Origin: Microbacterium sp. No. 7
GTDB taxonomy: Bacteria; Actinomycetota; Actinomycetes; Actinomycetales; Microbacteriaceae
Direction of reading: 5' to 3'
NCBI RefSeq assembly: GCF_001314225.1
Contig: NZ_CP012697.1
Coordinates: 1,860,001 to 1,924,000 of the forward strand
DNA: 64,000 bases
Shown here: positions 16,053 through 20,328 of the stretch, in pieces
How the letters are laid out: each line of letters begins with the position of its first letter
How positions within the stretch are numbered: position 1 is the first letter of the stretch
Translations under genes and position numbers: made by a program
Notes under the pieces: generated by a model
What the model saw: only the letters and a program-made list of their open reading frames with translations
Database searches by the model: none
What the model was told of the DNA's origin: nothing

Positions 16053-16994
16053 CTAGCCGCCGGGTCGTTCGATGACGGCGCCGTGGTCGGGTGCGACCTG
16101 AACTGTGGCGGGTTCTCCCGGGTTCCGGCGCGCGGCGCGCGAGCGACGCGGTGTCGGCATCCCCTCGCGGAGGAACGCCGAGCGCATGGAGCCGCCGTCG
16201 GCGAAGCCCGCGCTGCGGGCGATCTGATCGAGCGACAGCACGTCGTAGTCCGGGTTCCCGAGCATCGACGACGCCACGTCGACGCGTGCCCGGCGGAGCG
16301 CGCCGCGAGGCGTCGCCCCGTGCTCGGCGAAGAGGCGCTGGAGGTGACGTTCGGATATCGCCATGTCGTGCACGAGGGAGGCGACGCCGTAGTGGGCGTC
16401 GGCGGCGTTGAGCCGGATGAGGGCGTGCGCGCGCTCGTACAGGGATCCTCTGCGGTAGGCCGTCCGCGGCATCCCCGCGGACTCGAGCACGAGGCCCCAG
16501 ACGTGCTCGATCAAGAGGCGTTCGAGGAGATACGCGCTCACGGTGCCGGCCTCCGGCGGCGCGGACGCCGAGAGCGTTCCGAGAAGCGCGCGCAGCCCGC
16601 GGGCGAGCAGTCCCTCCGAGAGGACGCGGGGCAGCTCGATGTCCGTGCCGGCGAGGTCGGTCAGGGCGCGCCGCGGCAGCCAGACCATCGTGCACGAGCC
16701 CGGTCCGTTCCAGCGCACCAGCTCGTCGATGCCGTCGTGCAGGAGGAACGGCGACGTCGTCGCGCCGTCGGTCGCGGAGACGCGGAGACGGGCCGCCACG
16801 CCGTCGGGGAGCACGACCACGGCGAACCCGTCCTCCTGCCCGCTCCATCGCCATGTCGTCTGCTGCGTCCACCTGGACCTGCTGATCAGCACCGCGCGGT
16901 ACCGTCGGGCGCCCACGAACTGCGCGCCGTGCTCCGACGGCTCCGCCGTGATGCGCGCAGCCAGATAGGTCAGCGCGTCGTCGCCTGTCGCCAT
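16053..16994 (-). CDS. AraC-family transcriptional regulator
   Basis: The 313-residue protein has an N-terminal beta-rich sensor half (about 1-190, cupin-like as in AraC-binding-like domain proteins: WSGQEDGFAVVVLPDG) and a C-terminal pair of helix-turn-helices (about 200-300: ASLVHDMAISERHLQRLFAEHGATPRGALRRAR and IARSAGFADGGSMRSAFLREG). The second HTH keeps the GF.D.S.F.R pattern of AraC proteins. ATG at 16994 was chosen for its GAGGCGAG site; an in-frame upstream ATG at 17186 would add an unlikely Arg-rich leader. It lies upstream of the Tat-exported protein gene and divergent from a second AraC gene. Confidence 0.85.
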   Translation of the reverse strand: MATGDDALTYLAARITAEPSEHGAQFVGARRYRAVLISRSRWTQQTTWRWSGQEDGFAVVVLPDGVAARLRVSATDGATTSPFLLHDGIDELVRWNGPGSCTMVWLPRRALTDLAGTDIELPRVLSEGLLARGLRALLGTLSASAPPEAGTVSAYLLERLLIEHVWGLVLESAGMPRTAYRRGSLYERAHALIRLNAADAHYGVASLVHDMAISERHLQRLFAEHGATPRGALRRARVDVASSMLGNPDYDVLSLDQIARSAGFADGGSMRSAFLREGMPTPRRSRAARRNPGEPATVQVAPDHGAVIERPGG

Positions 16995-17270
16995 GTCTCG
17001 CCTCGCATTGCTCGCTCCGGTCGCGCGCGATCGCGGCGGCATCCGCACGCCACGCGATCGCGCTCCTCGGTAGGAGACGCCGTCGGCCGGCGATCGTTTC
17101 CCGTTCGGCCGAGATAGATCCGCTTTTGCAGGGATGGCGTTCCGGTTTCCCCGGAGTCCGTAACGGAGCAGATGGTGTGTTGTCACTGACCTATGAGACT
17201 CGGCGTCCGGGAGCAGCGATGCGATACCCAGGCGTGCCGGCAGAGCTCACCCATCGTCCGTTCGAGCCGA
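16995..17270. other. Shared control region of two divergent AraC-type genes
   Basis: This 276-bp stretch has no credible gene and is less GC-rich than its surroundings. It contains a perfect 11-base dyad TCCGTAACGGA at 17157-17167 and an AT-rich run with TAGATC near 17115. Either could belong to the promoters of the diverging regulators. Confidence 0.4.
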
Positions 17271-18176
17271 ATGTCGTCCGAATCCATGCGCAACGACCCC
17301 GTACCCGAGGCGCGATCCTCCGCGTCGGCCGCAAGGCTGGCCGCGTTCGGGTGGCGCACGGGCCGCCGCGGCGCCGCTCCGACGTCGTCGGTCGAGGTCG
17401 TCGCGAGCGGCACCTGGGCGGTCGCGAGGCTCTGGAGCAGCCCGTGCGTCCTCACGTCGTCGCCGCTGCCGCCTCGATCCATCCGTGTCGTCGTCGGGGT
17501 CCAGGGCGAGGCGGAGGTCGTCGCGGGCGGGGTCGGATCCGCCCTCCGCGCCGGGCAGATGATGGTGAGCGCCGGCGACACGCCCCTCTCGACGGACAGC
17601 TCCGGTCTCTGGGCCCGGTGCGAGTGGCGTCTGCCCTGGCGGGCCGCGCAGCACGAGCGGTTCGCACCCCACTTCGACCGGCCGCTCCCTCTGCCGGTCG
17701 CGAACCACGCGCTGCTGACGTCCACGACGAACGCACTGTGCGGCCACCCCGCTCTGGGCCGGTCGCCGAGCGCGGGGATGCTCGCCGACGTGCTGTCCCT
17801 CATCGTGCAGTCCGCGATCGTCGACGCGACCGGCGAGGCGATGGCGTTCACCACGGGTCAGCAGGCGCTGTTCCGGCGGGCGATGTCGGTCATCGAGTCG
17901 CGCTACGCCGACAGCGCCTTCGACGCCACGGCCCTGGCCGCGGCGCTCCACGTCTCGTCGAGGTATCTCAGGACCGTCTTCGCGGTGGCGCACACGACGC
18001 CGCGGATGGCGATCGAGGCCAGACGGGTGCGGGCGGCGTGGACGCTCCTCGGCAGCGACGACGCGTCGCACGGCGGCGCCCTGACCGCCGTCGCGCGAGA
18101 CGCGGGCTTCTCGACGGTCGCCCGCATGCAGGCGGCGCTGCGGCGCAGCGACGCGCCGGGCGGGCGTCCGGCGTAG
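17271..18176 (+). CDS. AraC-family transcriptional regulator
   Basis: The 301-residue protein has an N-terminal half of the AraC-binding-like (ligand-free beta barrel) type, with VVVGVQGEAEVVAGG and LRAGQMMVSAG, and a C-terminal DNA-binding half (about 205-295: IESRYADSAFDATALAAALHVSSRYLRTVFAVAHTTPRMAIEARRV and AVARDAGFSTVARMQAALRR). The GFS..ARMQAALRR element is close to the AraC consensus. Several in-frame starts exist; ATG 17271 or 17286 is most plausible and neither has a strong ribosome site. Its target is unknown; the divergent AraC gene and the facing permease are candidates. Confidence 0.82.
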   Translation: MSSESMRNDPVPEARSSASAARLAAFGWRTGRRGAAPTSSVEVVASGTWAVARLWSSPCVLTSSPLPPRSIRVVVGVQGEAEVVAGGVGSALRAGQMMVSAGDTPLSTDSSGLWARCEWRLPWRAAQHERFAPHFDRPLPLPVANHALLTSTTNALCGHPALGRSPSAGMLADVLSLIVQSAIVDATGEAMAFTTGQQALFRRAMSVIESRYADSAFDATALAAALHVSSRYLRTVFAVAHTTPRMAIEARRVRAAWTLLGSDDASHGGALTAVARDAGFSTVARMQAALRRSDAPGGRPA

Positions 18177-18233: not shown

Positions 18234-20228
18234 TCATTCCGTTCCCAGATGGGCGAATCGGCCGAACCGCGCGCTGGAGATGGGGTTGGCGTCGGCGACG
18301 ATCTGCTCGTAGCGGTGGTTGACGATCTTGGACACCTCGATGAGCGCGGCCTGCCGCTCGGTCGCGGGGGAGTTGTCCATGCGGGTCCAGCCCGCGCGCA
18401 GCACCTGGTCGTAGCGCTCGTGCTCGCGTGCCGACATGACCAGCGGGAACCCGAAGCGATCGACGTACGCGCGGGAGAGCTCGGCGATCTCGGCCTGCTC
18501 GTCCTCTCCGATCCCGTCGAGCGCGCCCTGACCGTGCTCGCGGGCGACCGGCTGCCCGTCGTCGTCGAGCCGGCCGAGGTCCGGGAACGTGTTCAGCAGG
18601 GCGGCCTGCTCCTCCGGGGTGGCCATGAGGAGCGCGTCCTGGAACGCCTCGCCGAGGGCCGCGGCGGAGGGGTAGGGGCGCAGCGCGAAGGCCCGCTCGA
18701 TCGCCCAGGCGCTGCCCTGCACGACCGAGGAGAAGGTCCGCTCGAACTGCTCGCGATCCATGTCGTTGATCTCGGCGAGGTGCACGCGGGTGCCCGTCGC
18801 GCTCTTCGCGATCGCCGGGCCGCGGTCGGGGCCGACGTGGAAGAAGAGCACGTTCAGCAGGAGCGCCGTGAACGCGCCCGCGGCGATGCCGCCCGAGAAG
18901 TACCACTGCAGCCATTCCGGCACCGCATCCTGCACGGCCGGGAAGGCCATGACGTAGACCCCGATCGCGATGGATGTGCCGGCGACGATCAGGTTGCGGT
19001 GGTCGTTGAAGTTGACGGTCGACAGGGTCTGGATGCCGACGACCGCGACGGCGGCGAACAGCACGAGCGCGGCGCCGCCGAGCACCGGCTCGGGGATCAT
19101 GCCGACGAGCGCGGCGGCCTTGGGGAACAGCCCGAGGACCATCATGAAGCCGCCCGCGACCGCGACGATCCATCGGCTCTTGACTCCCGTCACCCGCACG
19201 AGCCCGATGTTCTCCGCGAAGCACGTGTAGGGGAAGGATCCCATCGTGCCGCCGAGCACGGTCGACAGGCCGTCGGCCCGCAGGGCCGCGGCGATGTCGT
19301 CCTTGCGGATGCGCCTGCCGACGATGTCGCCGGTGGCGTAGAGGCTGCCGACCGTCTCCACCGCGGTGATCATCATGACGAGGAGGATGAGGAGAGCCGG
19401 GACGATCTCGAACCGGGGCATGCCGAAGTGGAACGGCGTGGCGAACCAGAACCAGCCCGCGTCGGCGACGCCGGACCAGTCGGAGTCGGGGTGCACGATG
19501 TACCAGACGACGGTCCCCGCGATCAGGCCCAGCAGCACGGAGATCGTGGACAGGAACCCCTTGAAGAACCGCTGCAGCAGCAGGATGACGAGCACCGTCC
19601 CGATCGCGAAGGCGAAGTTCACGGAGCTCGTGGGATCGCCGTGGCCGCCCGGGGACGCACCCATCACGCCGTAGGACCAGTCGAAGCCGGGGAGGCCGAG
19701 CTGACCTCCGATCGCGTGATTGGCCGCGACGGGCAGCAGGGTGATGCCGATGATCGTCAGCACGGAGCCCGTCACGACGGGCGGGAAGAACCGCACGAGC
19801 CGGGCGATCAGCGGTGCGACGAGGAAGAACAGGATGCCGCCGACGATCACCGATCCGAAGACGAGCGGCAGAGACTCCGATCCGCCGCCGGCCATGAACC
19901 CGATCGTGATGATCGGCGCGACGCCCGCGAACGCCACGCCCTGCAGCAGCGGCAGCTGCACGCCGACGCGGAACCTGCCGATGCGGAATCCGATCGCCTG
20001 GAGCAGCGAGGCGATGCCGCAGGTGAGCAGGTCGGCCTGGATGAGCTTGATCATGTCGTCGCCGGAGACGCCGAGCACGCCGCCGATGATGAGCGGCACG
20101 ATCACGGCGCCCGCGTAGAAGGCGGCGACGTGCTGGAACCCGTAGGTGAGGAGCTTCGGCACCGGGGGCACCTGGTCGACCGGATGGACGCGCCGGGCGC
20201 GCACGCTGACGTCGGTGGAACGGGACAT
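18234..20228 (-). CDS. NCS2 nucleobase permease fused to an OHCU decarboxylase-like domain
   Basis: This 664-residue protein joins two modules. Residues about 25-480 form an NCS2 (UraA/PbuX/UacT type) transporter with 12-14 helices; helix 1 has the conserved GFQHV histidine, and ENIGLVRVTGVKSR is the family signature. Residues about 500-655 resemble 2-oxo-4-hydroxy-4-carboxy-5-ureidoimidazoline decarboxylase, which makes (S)-allantoin from urate: FPDLG, YVDRFGFPLV, RMDNSPATE and EVSKIV are recognisable. The catalytic His of the canonical HPDLG motif is Phe548 here, while the Glu in REHGQGAL is kept. Urate or xanthine uptake is therefore the best guess for the transporter, with the tail either inactive or altered. 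The start has a GAAGGAGA site. No other urate genes are nearby. Confidence 0.85.
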   Translation of the reverse strand: MSRSTDVSVRARRVHPVDQVPPVPKLLTYGFQHVAAFYAGAVIVPLIIGGVLGVSGDDMIKLIQADLLTCGIASLLQAIGFRIGRFRVGVQLPLLQGVAFAGVAPIITIGFMAGGGSESLPLVFGSVIVGGILFFLVAPLIARLVRFFPPVVTGSVLTIIGITLLPVAANHAIGGQLGLPGFDWSYGVMGASPGGHGDPTSSVNFAFAIGTVLVILLLQRFFKGFLSTISVLLGLIAGTVVWYIVHPDSDWSGVADAGWFWFATPFHFGMPRFEIVPALLILLVMMITAVETVGSLYATGDIVGRRIRKDDIAAALRADGLSTVLGGTMGSFPYTCFAENIGLVRVTGVKSRWIVAVAGGFMMVLGLFPKAAALVGMIPEPVLGGAALVLFAAVAVVGIQTLSTVNFNDHRNLIVAGTSIAIGVYVMAFPAVQDAVPEWLQWYFSGGIAAGAFTALLLNVLFFHVGPDRGPAIAKSATGTRVHLAEINDMDREQFERTFSSVVQGSAWAIERAFALRPYPSAAALGEAFQDALLMATPEEQAALLNTFPDLGRLDDDGQPVAREHGQGALDGIGEDEQAEIAELSRAYVDRFGFPLVMSAREHERYDQVLRAGWTRMDNSPATERQAALIEVSKIVNHRYEQIVADANPISSARFGRFAHLGTE

Positions 20229-20328
20229 GCGGGATCTCCTTCGGAATGCAGAGCAGCGGGCCTTGAGAAGGGCCGGCCGTGTGACGACCGGCGGACGCCG
20301 GCCGGTCTTCCGGGGGGAGGTGCGAGTC

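Follow-up and report, generated by a model that had tools for sequence, protein, structure and literature searches.

An NCS2 purine permease with an OHCU decarboxylase-like tail that lacks the catalytic histidine in Actinomycetota

What does a purine permease gain from a C-terminal domain that resembles OHCU decarboxylase and carries an aromatic residue in place of the catalytic His? The question is raised by a gene of Microbacterium sp. No. 7 in the window analysed here, which is the whole stretch of 64,000 nucleotides from 1,860,001 to 1,924,000 of NZ_CP012697.1. The gene occupies 18234-20228 of the window on the minus strand and is translated from an ATG into 664 residues; a ribosome-binding-like AAGGAG (20236-20241, minus strand) can be read 7 nt 5' of the start. 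Residues 25-431 (18936-20156, minus strand) match the NCS2 permease domain PF00860 with 320.8 bits against a cut-off of 27, and the protein also passes the model of the PbuX subfamily, TIGR03173 (435.3, cut-off 414.15). The permease part has the UapA/UraA fold and the TM10 signature: the motif FAENIGLVRVTG (residues 337-348; 19185-19220, minus strand), read in the protein and compared with the rows of its relatives, is presumably the [QE]NxGxxxxT signature of NCS2 permeases. Judged by family and fold, the protein is a PbuX/UapA-type purine permease, for which nucleobase transport is predicted.

The permease is followed by a soluble C-terminal tail of about 180 residues, of which residues 488-640 (18309-18767, minus strand) match the Pfam domain PF09349 with 116.2 bits against a cut-off of 24. 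The tail was folded alone for the structure comparison; comparison with the model of the whole protein returned permeases. The predicted model of the tail resembles OHCU decarboxylase structures, so that the fold is kept. All three NCBIfam enzyme models stay under their cut-offs, namely TIGR03164 (83.5 against 96.25), NF010372 (80.5 against 124) and TIGR03180 (55.6 against 139.4). The first-pass annotation had read the gene as a fusion of an NCS2 transporter with an OHCU decarboxylase-like domain, and this holds, the open reading frame being real and both Pfam domains lying above cut-off. Its worry that a sequencing error had created the fusion can be set aside, together with a chance fusion, because the same architecture is common to 42 further proteins (635-669 aa) and to 80 near-full-length genome loci found in the search for two-domain homologues that it had proposed.

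Phe548, in the motif FPDLG (18585-18587, minus strand), aligns with His67 of the zebrafish OHCU decarboxylase 2o70, and Glu564 aligns with Glu87; we take His67 and Glu87 to be the catalytic residues of the enzyme. The earlier observations that Phe stands in the canonical place of His, that the neighbouring Glu is kept and that FGFPLV and RMDNSPATE elements occur in the translation are all correct. Glu564-His565 (18534-18539, minus strand; residues 563-565 read REH) is the site of the Glu-Gln pair of the free enzymes, and VADANPI (residues 644-650; 18279-18299, minus strand) is the end motif of Actinomycetes tails.

The site of the former His is aromatic in every tail. In the alignment pooled from several sources, which comprises 163 distinct tails (three duplicate loci removed, 166 tails reduced to 163) and omits P0121-P0130 and the HIU hydrolase fusions P0114, P0116, P0117 and P0119, all four with HP, Phe occurs in 87 tails and Tyr in 76; all 171 free OHCU decarboxylases in the same alignment have His. 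On the question whether Phe is conserved at 548, then, the aromatic character is constant and Phe itself is not. The named loci, the best 80 of 558 relatives, which match the query best, along almost all of the fusion, and are not a random sample, have 52 Phe and 28 Tyr, and the free OHCU domains in these loci have His in 69 of 69. When the tail of Rubrobacter radiotolerans served as the query, Tyr was found in 119 of 119 permease fusions among the best 120 of 526 matches, and the only row with His, P0223, is without a permease domain. We call these tails Rubrobacter-type, a label of our own; most of the members are metagenome proteins. A phylum sample (PF09349 in 396 genomes, 20 regions fetched) contributed 11 fusions, ten with Tyr and one with Phe, and an order sample (PF09349 in 297 genomes, 40 regions with long frames fetched) contributed 29 fusions besides that of the window. 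No permease fusion with His was found in the phylum sample, among those best 120 of 526 matches or in the order sample, where the search set aside the G036, G109 and short-frame matches. The suspicion that His would be present in this clade was thus not borne out, since every permease fusion examined lacks it.

Other residues of the pocket divide the tails into two kinds. Asp takes the place of the Glu, which the window protein keeps, in 132 of the 163 pooled tails and, among the Rubrobacter-type rows, in 118 of 120. The Glu-Gln pair is present in 171 of 171 free enzymes; the position of Gln, a mark of UraD, is His565 in the window protein, and the Asn of the NxxY segment, found in 98-100% of free enzymes, is Ser585. 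Most Actinomycetes tails have other residues in place of Gln and Asn. Rubrobacter-type rows keep Gln in 119, Asn in 117, Arg in 120 and Glu624 in 119 of 120, and Arg616 and Glu624 are kept almost everywhere, in the pooled tails as in the Rubrobacter-type rows. The end motif is no feature of the free enzymes: among the 163 tails Ala647 is conserved at 0.99 and Asn648 and Pro649 at 0.98 each. The near-invariant VADANP end belongs to the Actinomycetes tails and was absent from those Rubrobacter-type rows that were looked at. Several Rubrobacter-type tails (L158, L159, L160, L164, L166 and L154) carry an insert of about 20-30 residues that separates the Tyr motif from the Asp/Glu-Gln motif. Two further oddities stand out. 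One fusion (L065 6919-8868, genome G294) is out of frame where its permease part begins, with a garbled TM1 and a normal TM10 and tail, perhaps through gene decay or faulty assembly. In one genus, g95 (for example G318:C1:5424978-5425394), frames of about 200 aa give weak PF09349 matches that are split into two halves, and the genomes also have a normal OHCU decarboxylase elsewhere; these are perhaps diverged OHCU-like proteins.

The tails share one origin from within the His-bearing UraD enzymes. In a tree calculated without the His column, all of them fall in one clade (support 100/98) with the Rubrobacter tail basal; the clade is nested among His-bearing UraD enzymes, and the UraD_2-type free enzymes of Actinomycetes are far off. 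The tree was computed after thinning to 40 of 166 tails, 33 of 60 UraD rows and 17 of 116 UraD_2 rows, and its bootstrap had yet to settle (0.984). The fusion is kept in deeply separated classes of Actinomycetota. A possible ancestral arrangement is seen in Deinococcus sp. QL22, where a permease gene overlaps a His-bearing uraD by 4 bases and is followed by pucL and uraH. A likely route is an adjacent permease-uraD pair, a single fusion and then loss of His: the neighbouring genes would have fused once, early in Actinomycetota, after which the catalytic His would have become Tyr and later Phe, and Glu would have become Asp. No fusion outside Actinomycetota was seen in the plasmid search among the 15 of 596 records listed. 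The D. aetherius and Priestia plasmid matches are two separate features by annotation, a single-piece Methylobacterium match proved to be a plain permease followed by another gene, and L148, titled uncultured Acidobacteria, is a metagenome bin and was set aside as a case from outside the phylum.

Within the window the fusion stands alone; its neighbours are an AraC-type HTH_18 gene and, on the opposite side, a tRNA-Met. The HTH_18 gene (17193-18176, plus strand) and the fusion gene end 58 bases apart, and the former lies back to back with a second, divergent HTH_18 gene (16053-17186, minus strand). The purine catabolism genes of this genome are dispersed (296 kb, 4.44 Mb). A uricase is encoded at 296 kb, about 1.6 Mb from the fusion (C1:288000-305000, L182), and a free His-bearing OHCU decarboxylase and an HIU hydrolase at 4.44 Mb (C1:4434000-4453900, L003), in a cluster that has its own unfused NCS2 permease. 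That cluster also includes genes for an FAD_binding_3 monooxygenase, an amidohydrolase, a formamidase-like protein, an AtzH-amidase, a class-V aminotransferase and an M20 peptidase.

The view that the fusion is isolated from other urate genes, correct for the window, does not extend to its relatives. A free His-bearing OHCU decarboxylase lies directly downstream on the same strand in 67 of the 80 named loci, so that the catalytic step is covered there, and further off in two; the fetched flanks, in some cases truncated where a contig ends, include HIU hydrolase in 66 of 80 and uricase in 45 of 80, and 11 loci have none of the three urate genes. The annotated order on a Rhodococcus qingshengii plasmid is SLC23 family protein, uraD, uraH and pucL. 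The free His-bearing gene accompanies 10 of 11 fusion regions in the phylum sample as well. The order sample has it directly beside the fusion in just 4 of 29 fetched loci (L034-L037), the last of which also has a second, unfused permease and, by reading, genes for hydroxypyruvate isomerase, tartronate semialdehyde reductase, glyoxylate carboligase and glycerate kinase. The fusion occurs in at least 30 of the 297 genomes of this sample; a PF01014 uricase is encoded in 11 of these 30 and a second PF09349 domain in 12, and 18 are without either, uricase being scored by PF01014 alone, with other urate oxidases (HpxO and PuuD types) outside that count. The top two relatives listed, from Nesterenkonia (L074, 79% identity) and Millisia (L075, 72%), have flanks without urate enzyme genes. 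A PucR-like gene lies near the Nesterenkonia fusion, and PucR-type genes were found at 15 of the 80 named loci and at four loci of one genus in the order sample.

Because a disabled tail has been kept across many actinobacteria, often beside a working copy of the enzyme, it probably senses or steers something for the importer. We favour, at a probability of about one half, the reading that the tail is a catalytically disabled OHCU decarboxylase which binds a purine or ureide, or contacts the permease, and thereby adjusts uptake. The tail would have lost OHCU decarboxylation, which the free enzyme would carry out wherever the pathway exists; the old pocket may bind a purine or ureide, or the tail may touch the permease in another way, and the bound or contacting tail would then modulate uptake. 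A narrower version, in which the tail is a built-in metabolite sensor whose former active site would gate the permease on binding a purine or ureide, is offered more tentatively. Rubrobacter-type rows change His and Glu and keep Gln, Asn, Arg and Glu624, the pattern to be expected if the pocket still binds, and the argument is strongest for that type, in which just the two catalytic residues are altered. The replacement of Gln and Asn in most Actinomycetes tails, which binding of the same ligand would not require, counts against the favoured reading, as does the Glu564 retained by the window tail. Nor can the ligand, if there is one, be assumed to be an intermediate of urate oxidation, given the 18 of 30 genomes with neither a PF01014 uricase nor a second PF09349 domain. 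The first-pass annotation had offered a sensor or regulator of the transporter, or other chemistry. The proposal is partly supported, with its regulatory branch favoured, and other chemistry has become less likely, as the site is Phe in numerous lineages and the Actinomycetes tails have mostly lost the partner Gln and Asn.

The main rival is docking or dimerisation, in which the tail senses nothing and instead brings the free OHCU decarboxylase or further enzymes of urate breakdown to the permease, or holds a permease dimer together. OHCU decarboxylases are dimers, and a tail that keeps the fold with its catalytic residues gone, often with a live enzyme encoded directly behind it, speaks for such a role. 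Docking is weakened, however, by the live partners themselves and by the lack of both a PF01014 uricase and a second PF09349 domain in 18 of the 30 fusion-bearing genomes of the order sample; the live partners come from two groups distant in the tree, HPDLA/HPELA enzymes beside several Rubrobacter-type fusions and HPRIG enzymes in Actinomycetes. Neither point touches dimerisation of the permease alone, and on balance we regard docking or dimerisation as doubtful. The tail might also still be an enzyme, with residual OHCU decarboxylation or some other chemistry that uses the Tyr/Asp pair or a displaced His. A His does stand one residue past the lost one, replacing Pro, in 15 of the 80 named loci (AFHDLG; for example L093, L098 and L100), the remaining pocket of the Rubrobacter-type tails and Glu564 of the window tail would suit such a role, and the tail is the sole PF09349 domain in many genomes. 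But Phe, which is unable to act as an acid or base, is so common at the key site that retained or new chemistry becomes less likely, and the loss of Gln and Asn from Actinomycetes tails, the live enzyme beside so many named fusions and the sub-threshold scores with the three enzyme models argue in the same direction; we consider an active tail quite improbable.

The tail is conserved to a degree comparable to the live enzyme. Among the 69 loci that have both, 1862 of 2346 pairs show stronger conservation in the tail than in the live OHCU decarboxylase. Median values of dN/dS are 0.21 (tail), 0.27 (live enzyme) and 0.19 (permease; 270 usable pairs with wide quartiles; a simple counting estimate on GC-rich, partly saturated genes, fit for comparing segments only). 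The pairs share ancestry, and the conservation figures are therefore comparisons, not tests. An inert relic, carried along after the fusion without function, would agree with the loss of catalytic residues and with a tail function that is itself a proposal, but it is unlikely, and we give it very little weight, against conservation comparable to that of the live enzyme, a former His site that is aromatic in all tails, a tail-specific end motif and retention in deeply separated classes.

Some published work may bear on the fusion. A table in PMC4617892 lists the Mycobacterium smegmatis genes MSMEG_1293 (xanthine/uracil permease) and MSMEG_1294-1296 as 3.5-4-fold up under nitrogen limitation, the neighbours of MSMEG_1293 being OHCU decarboxylase (1294), transthyretin (1295) and uricase (1296); the text of that paper gives 2.8-fold for uricase, unlike its table. 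A GlnR binding peak at MSMEG_1293 is recorded in PMC3662644, and PMC4222082 reports GlnR-dependent induction and no binding in vitro. A phosphoarginine, R475, is listed for MSMEG_1293 in PMC9604228, with that Arg in only 0.23% of homologues. Gene order and numbering suggest that MSMEG_1293 is a permease-tail fusion; residue 475 lies within the tail in the 634-aa mycobacterial fusions. We found no paper in the open-licence literature on the permease-OHCU fusion or its lost His, and no description there of an NCS2 transporter with an allosteric ligand-binding domain derived from a disabled pathway enzyme. The two-domain architecture is already in the databases, one record bearing the automatic name 'Xanthine permease / ... 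(OHCU) decarboxylase'; we describe the protein as an NCS2 permease with a pseudoenzyme tail. Naming has practical consequences. The plasmid fusion of Rubrobacter radiotolerans (L154 5956-7953), with Tyr at the site, is called uraD in one record and pbuX in another; with at least one His-less fusion named uraD, annotation could assign this step to a genome that encodes no other OHCU decarboxylase and possibly lacks it. More broadly, with a disabled pathway enzyme as the fixed tail of widespread importers, uptake and catabolism may be coupled in one polypeptide. The family offers a clear example from nature of how an enzyme becomes a non-catalytic domain; it has a single origin, and living stages are seen in the separate permease-uraD pair, the Tyr-type and the Phe-type fusions. 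If the sensor reading is true, the permease would have gained an allosteric domain from the final enzyme of the very pathway it supplies, once that enzyme was disabled.

Among known systems, the NCS2/NAT purine permeases of PF00860, such as PbuX and UapA, are the nearest on one side; the window protein adds to them a soluble OHCU decarboxylase-like tail, and solved NCS2 chains are matched by its permease part alone. SLC26/SulP transporters with a C-terminal STAS domain are alike in layout, not by homology: the window tail matches PF09349 only, and OHCU decarboxylase structures, and has no STAS domain of the SLC26/SulP kind. On the other side stands UraD (PF09349; 2o70, 3o7h and 2o8i), from which the tails differ by Phe or Tyr for His and mostly Asp for Glu, and the tail studied here also by its fusion to a permease and its scores under the NCBIfam enzyme cut-offs. 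OHCU domains joined to another member of the urate pathway are described in PMC2834698 and PMC3646786, and the former reports that the OHCU domain of the plant fusion is active. The plant OHCU decarboxylase-HIU hydrolase proteins and the bacterial PF00576+PF09349 proteins are of this kind. HP is kept in the five bacterial PF00576 fusions listed, whereas in the permease fusions the partner is a transporter and the His is gone.
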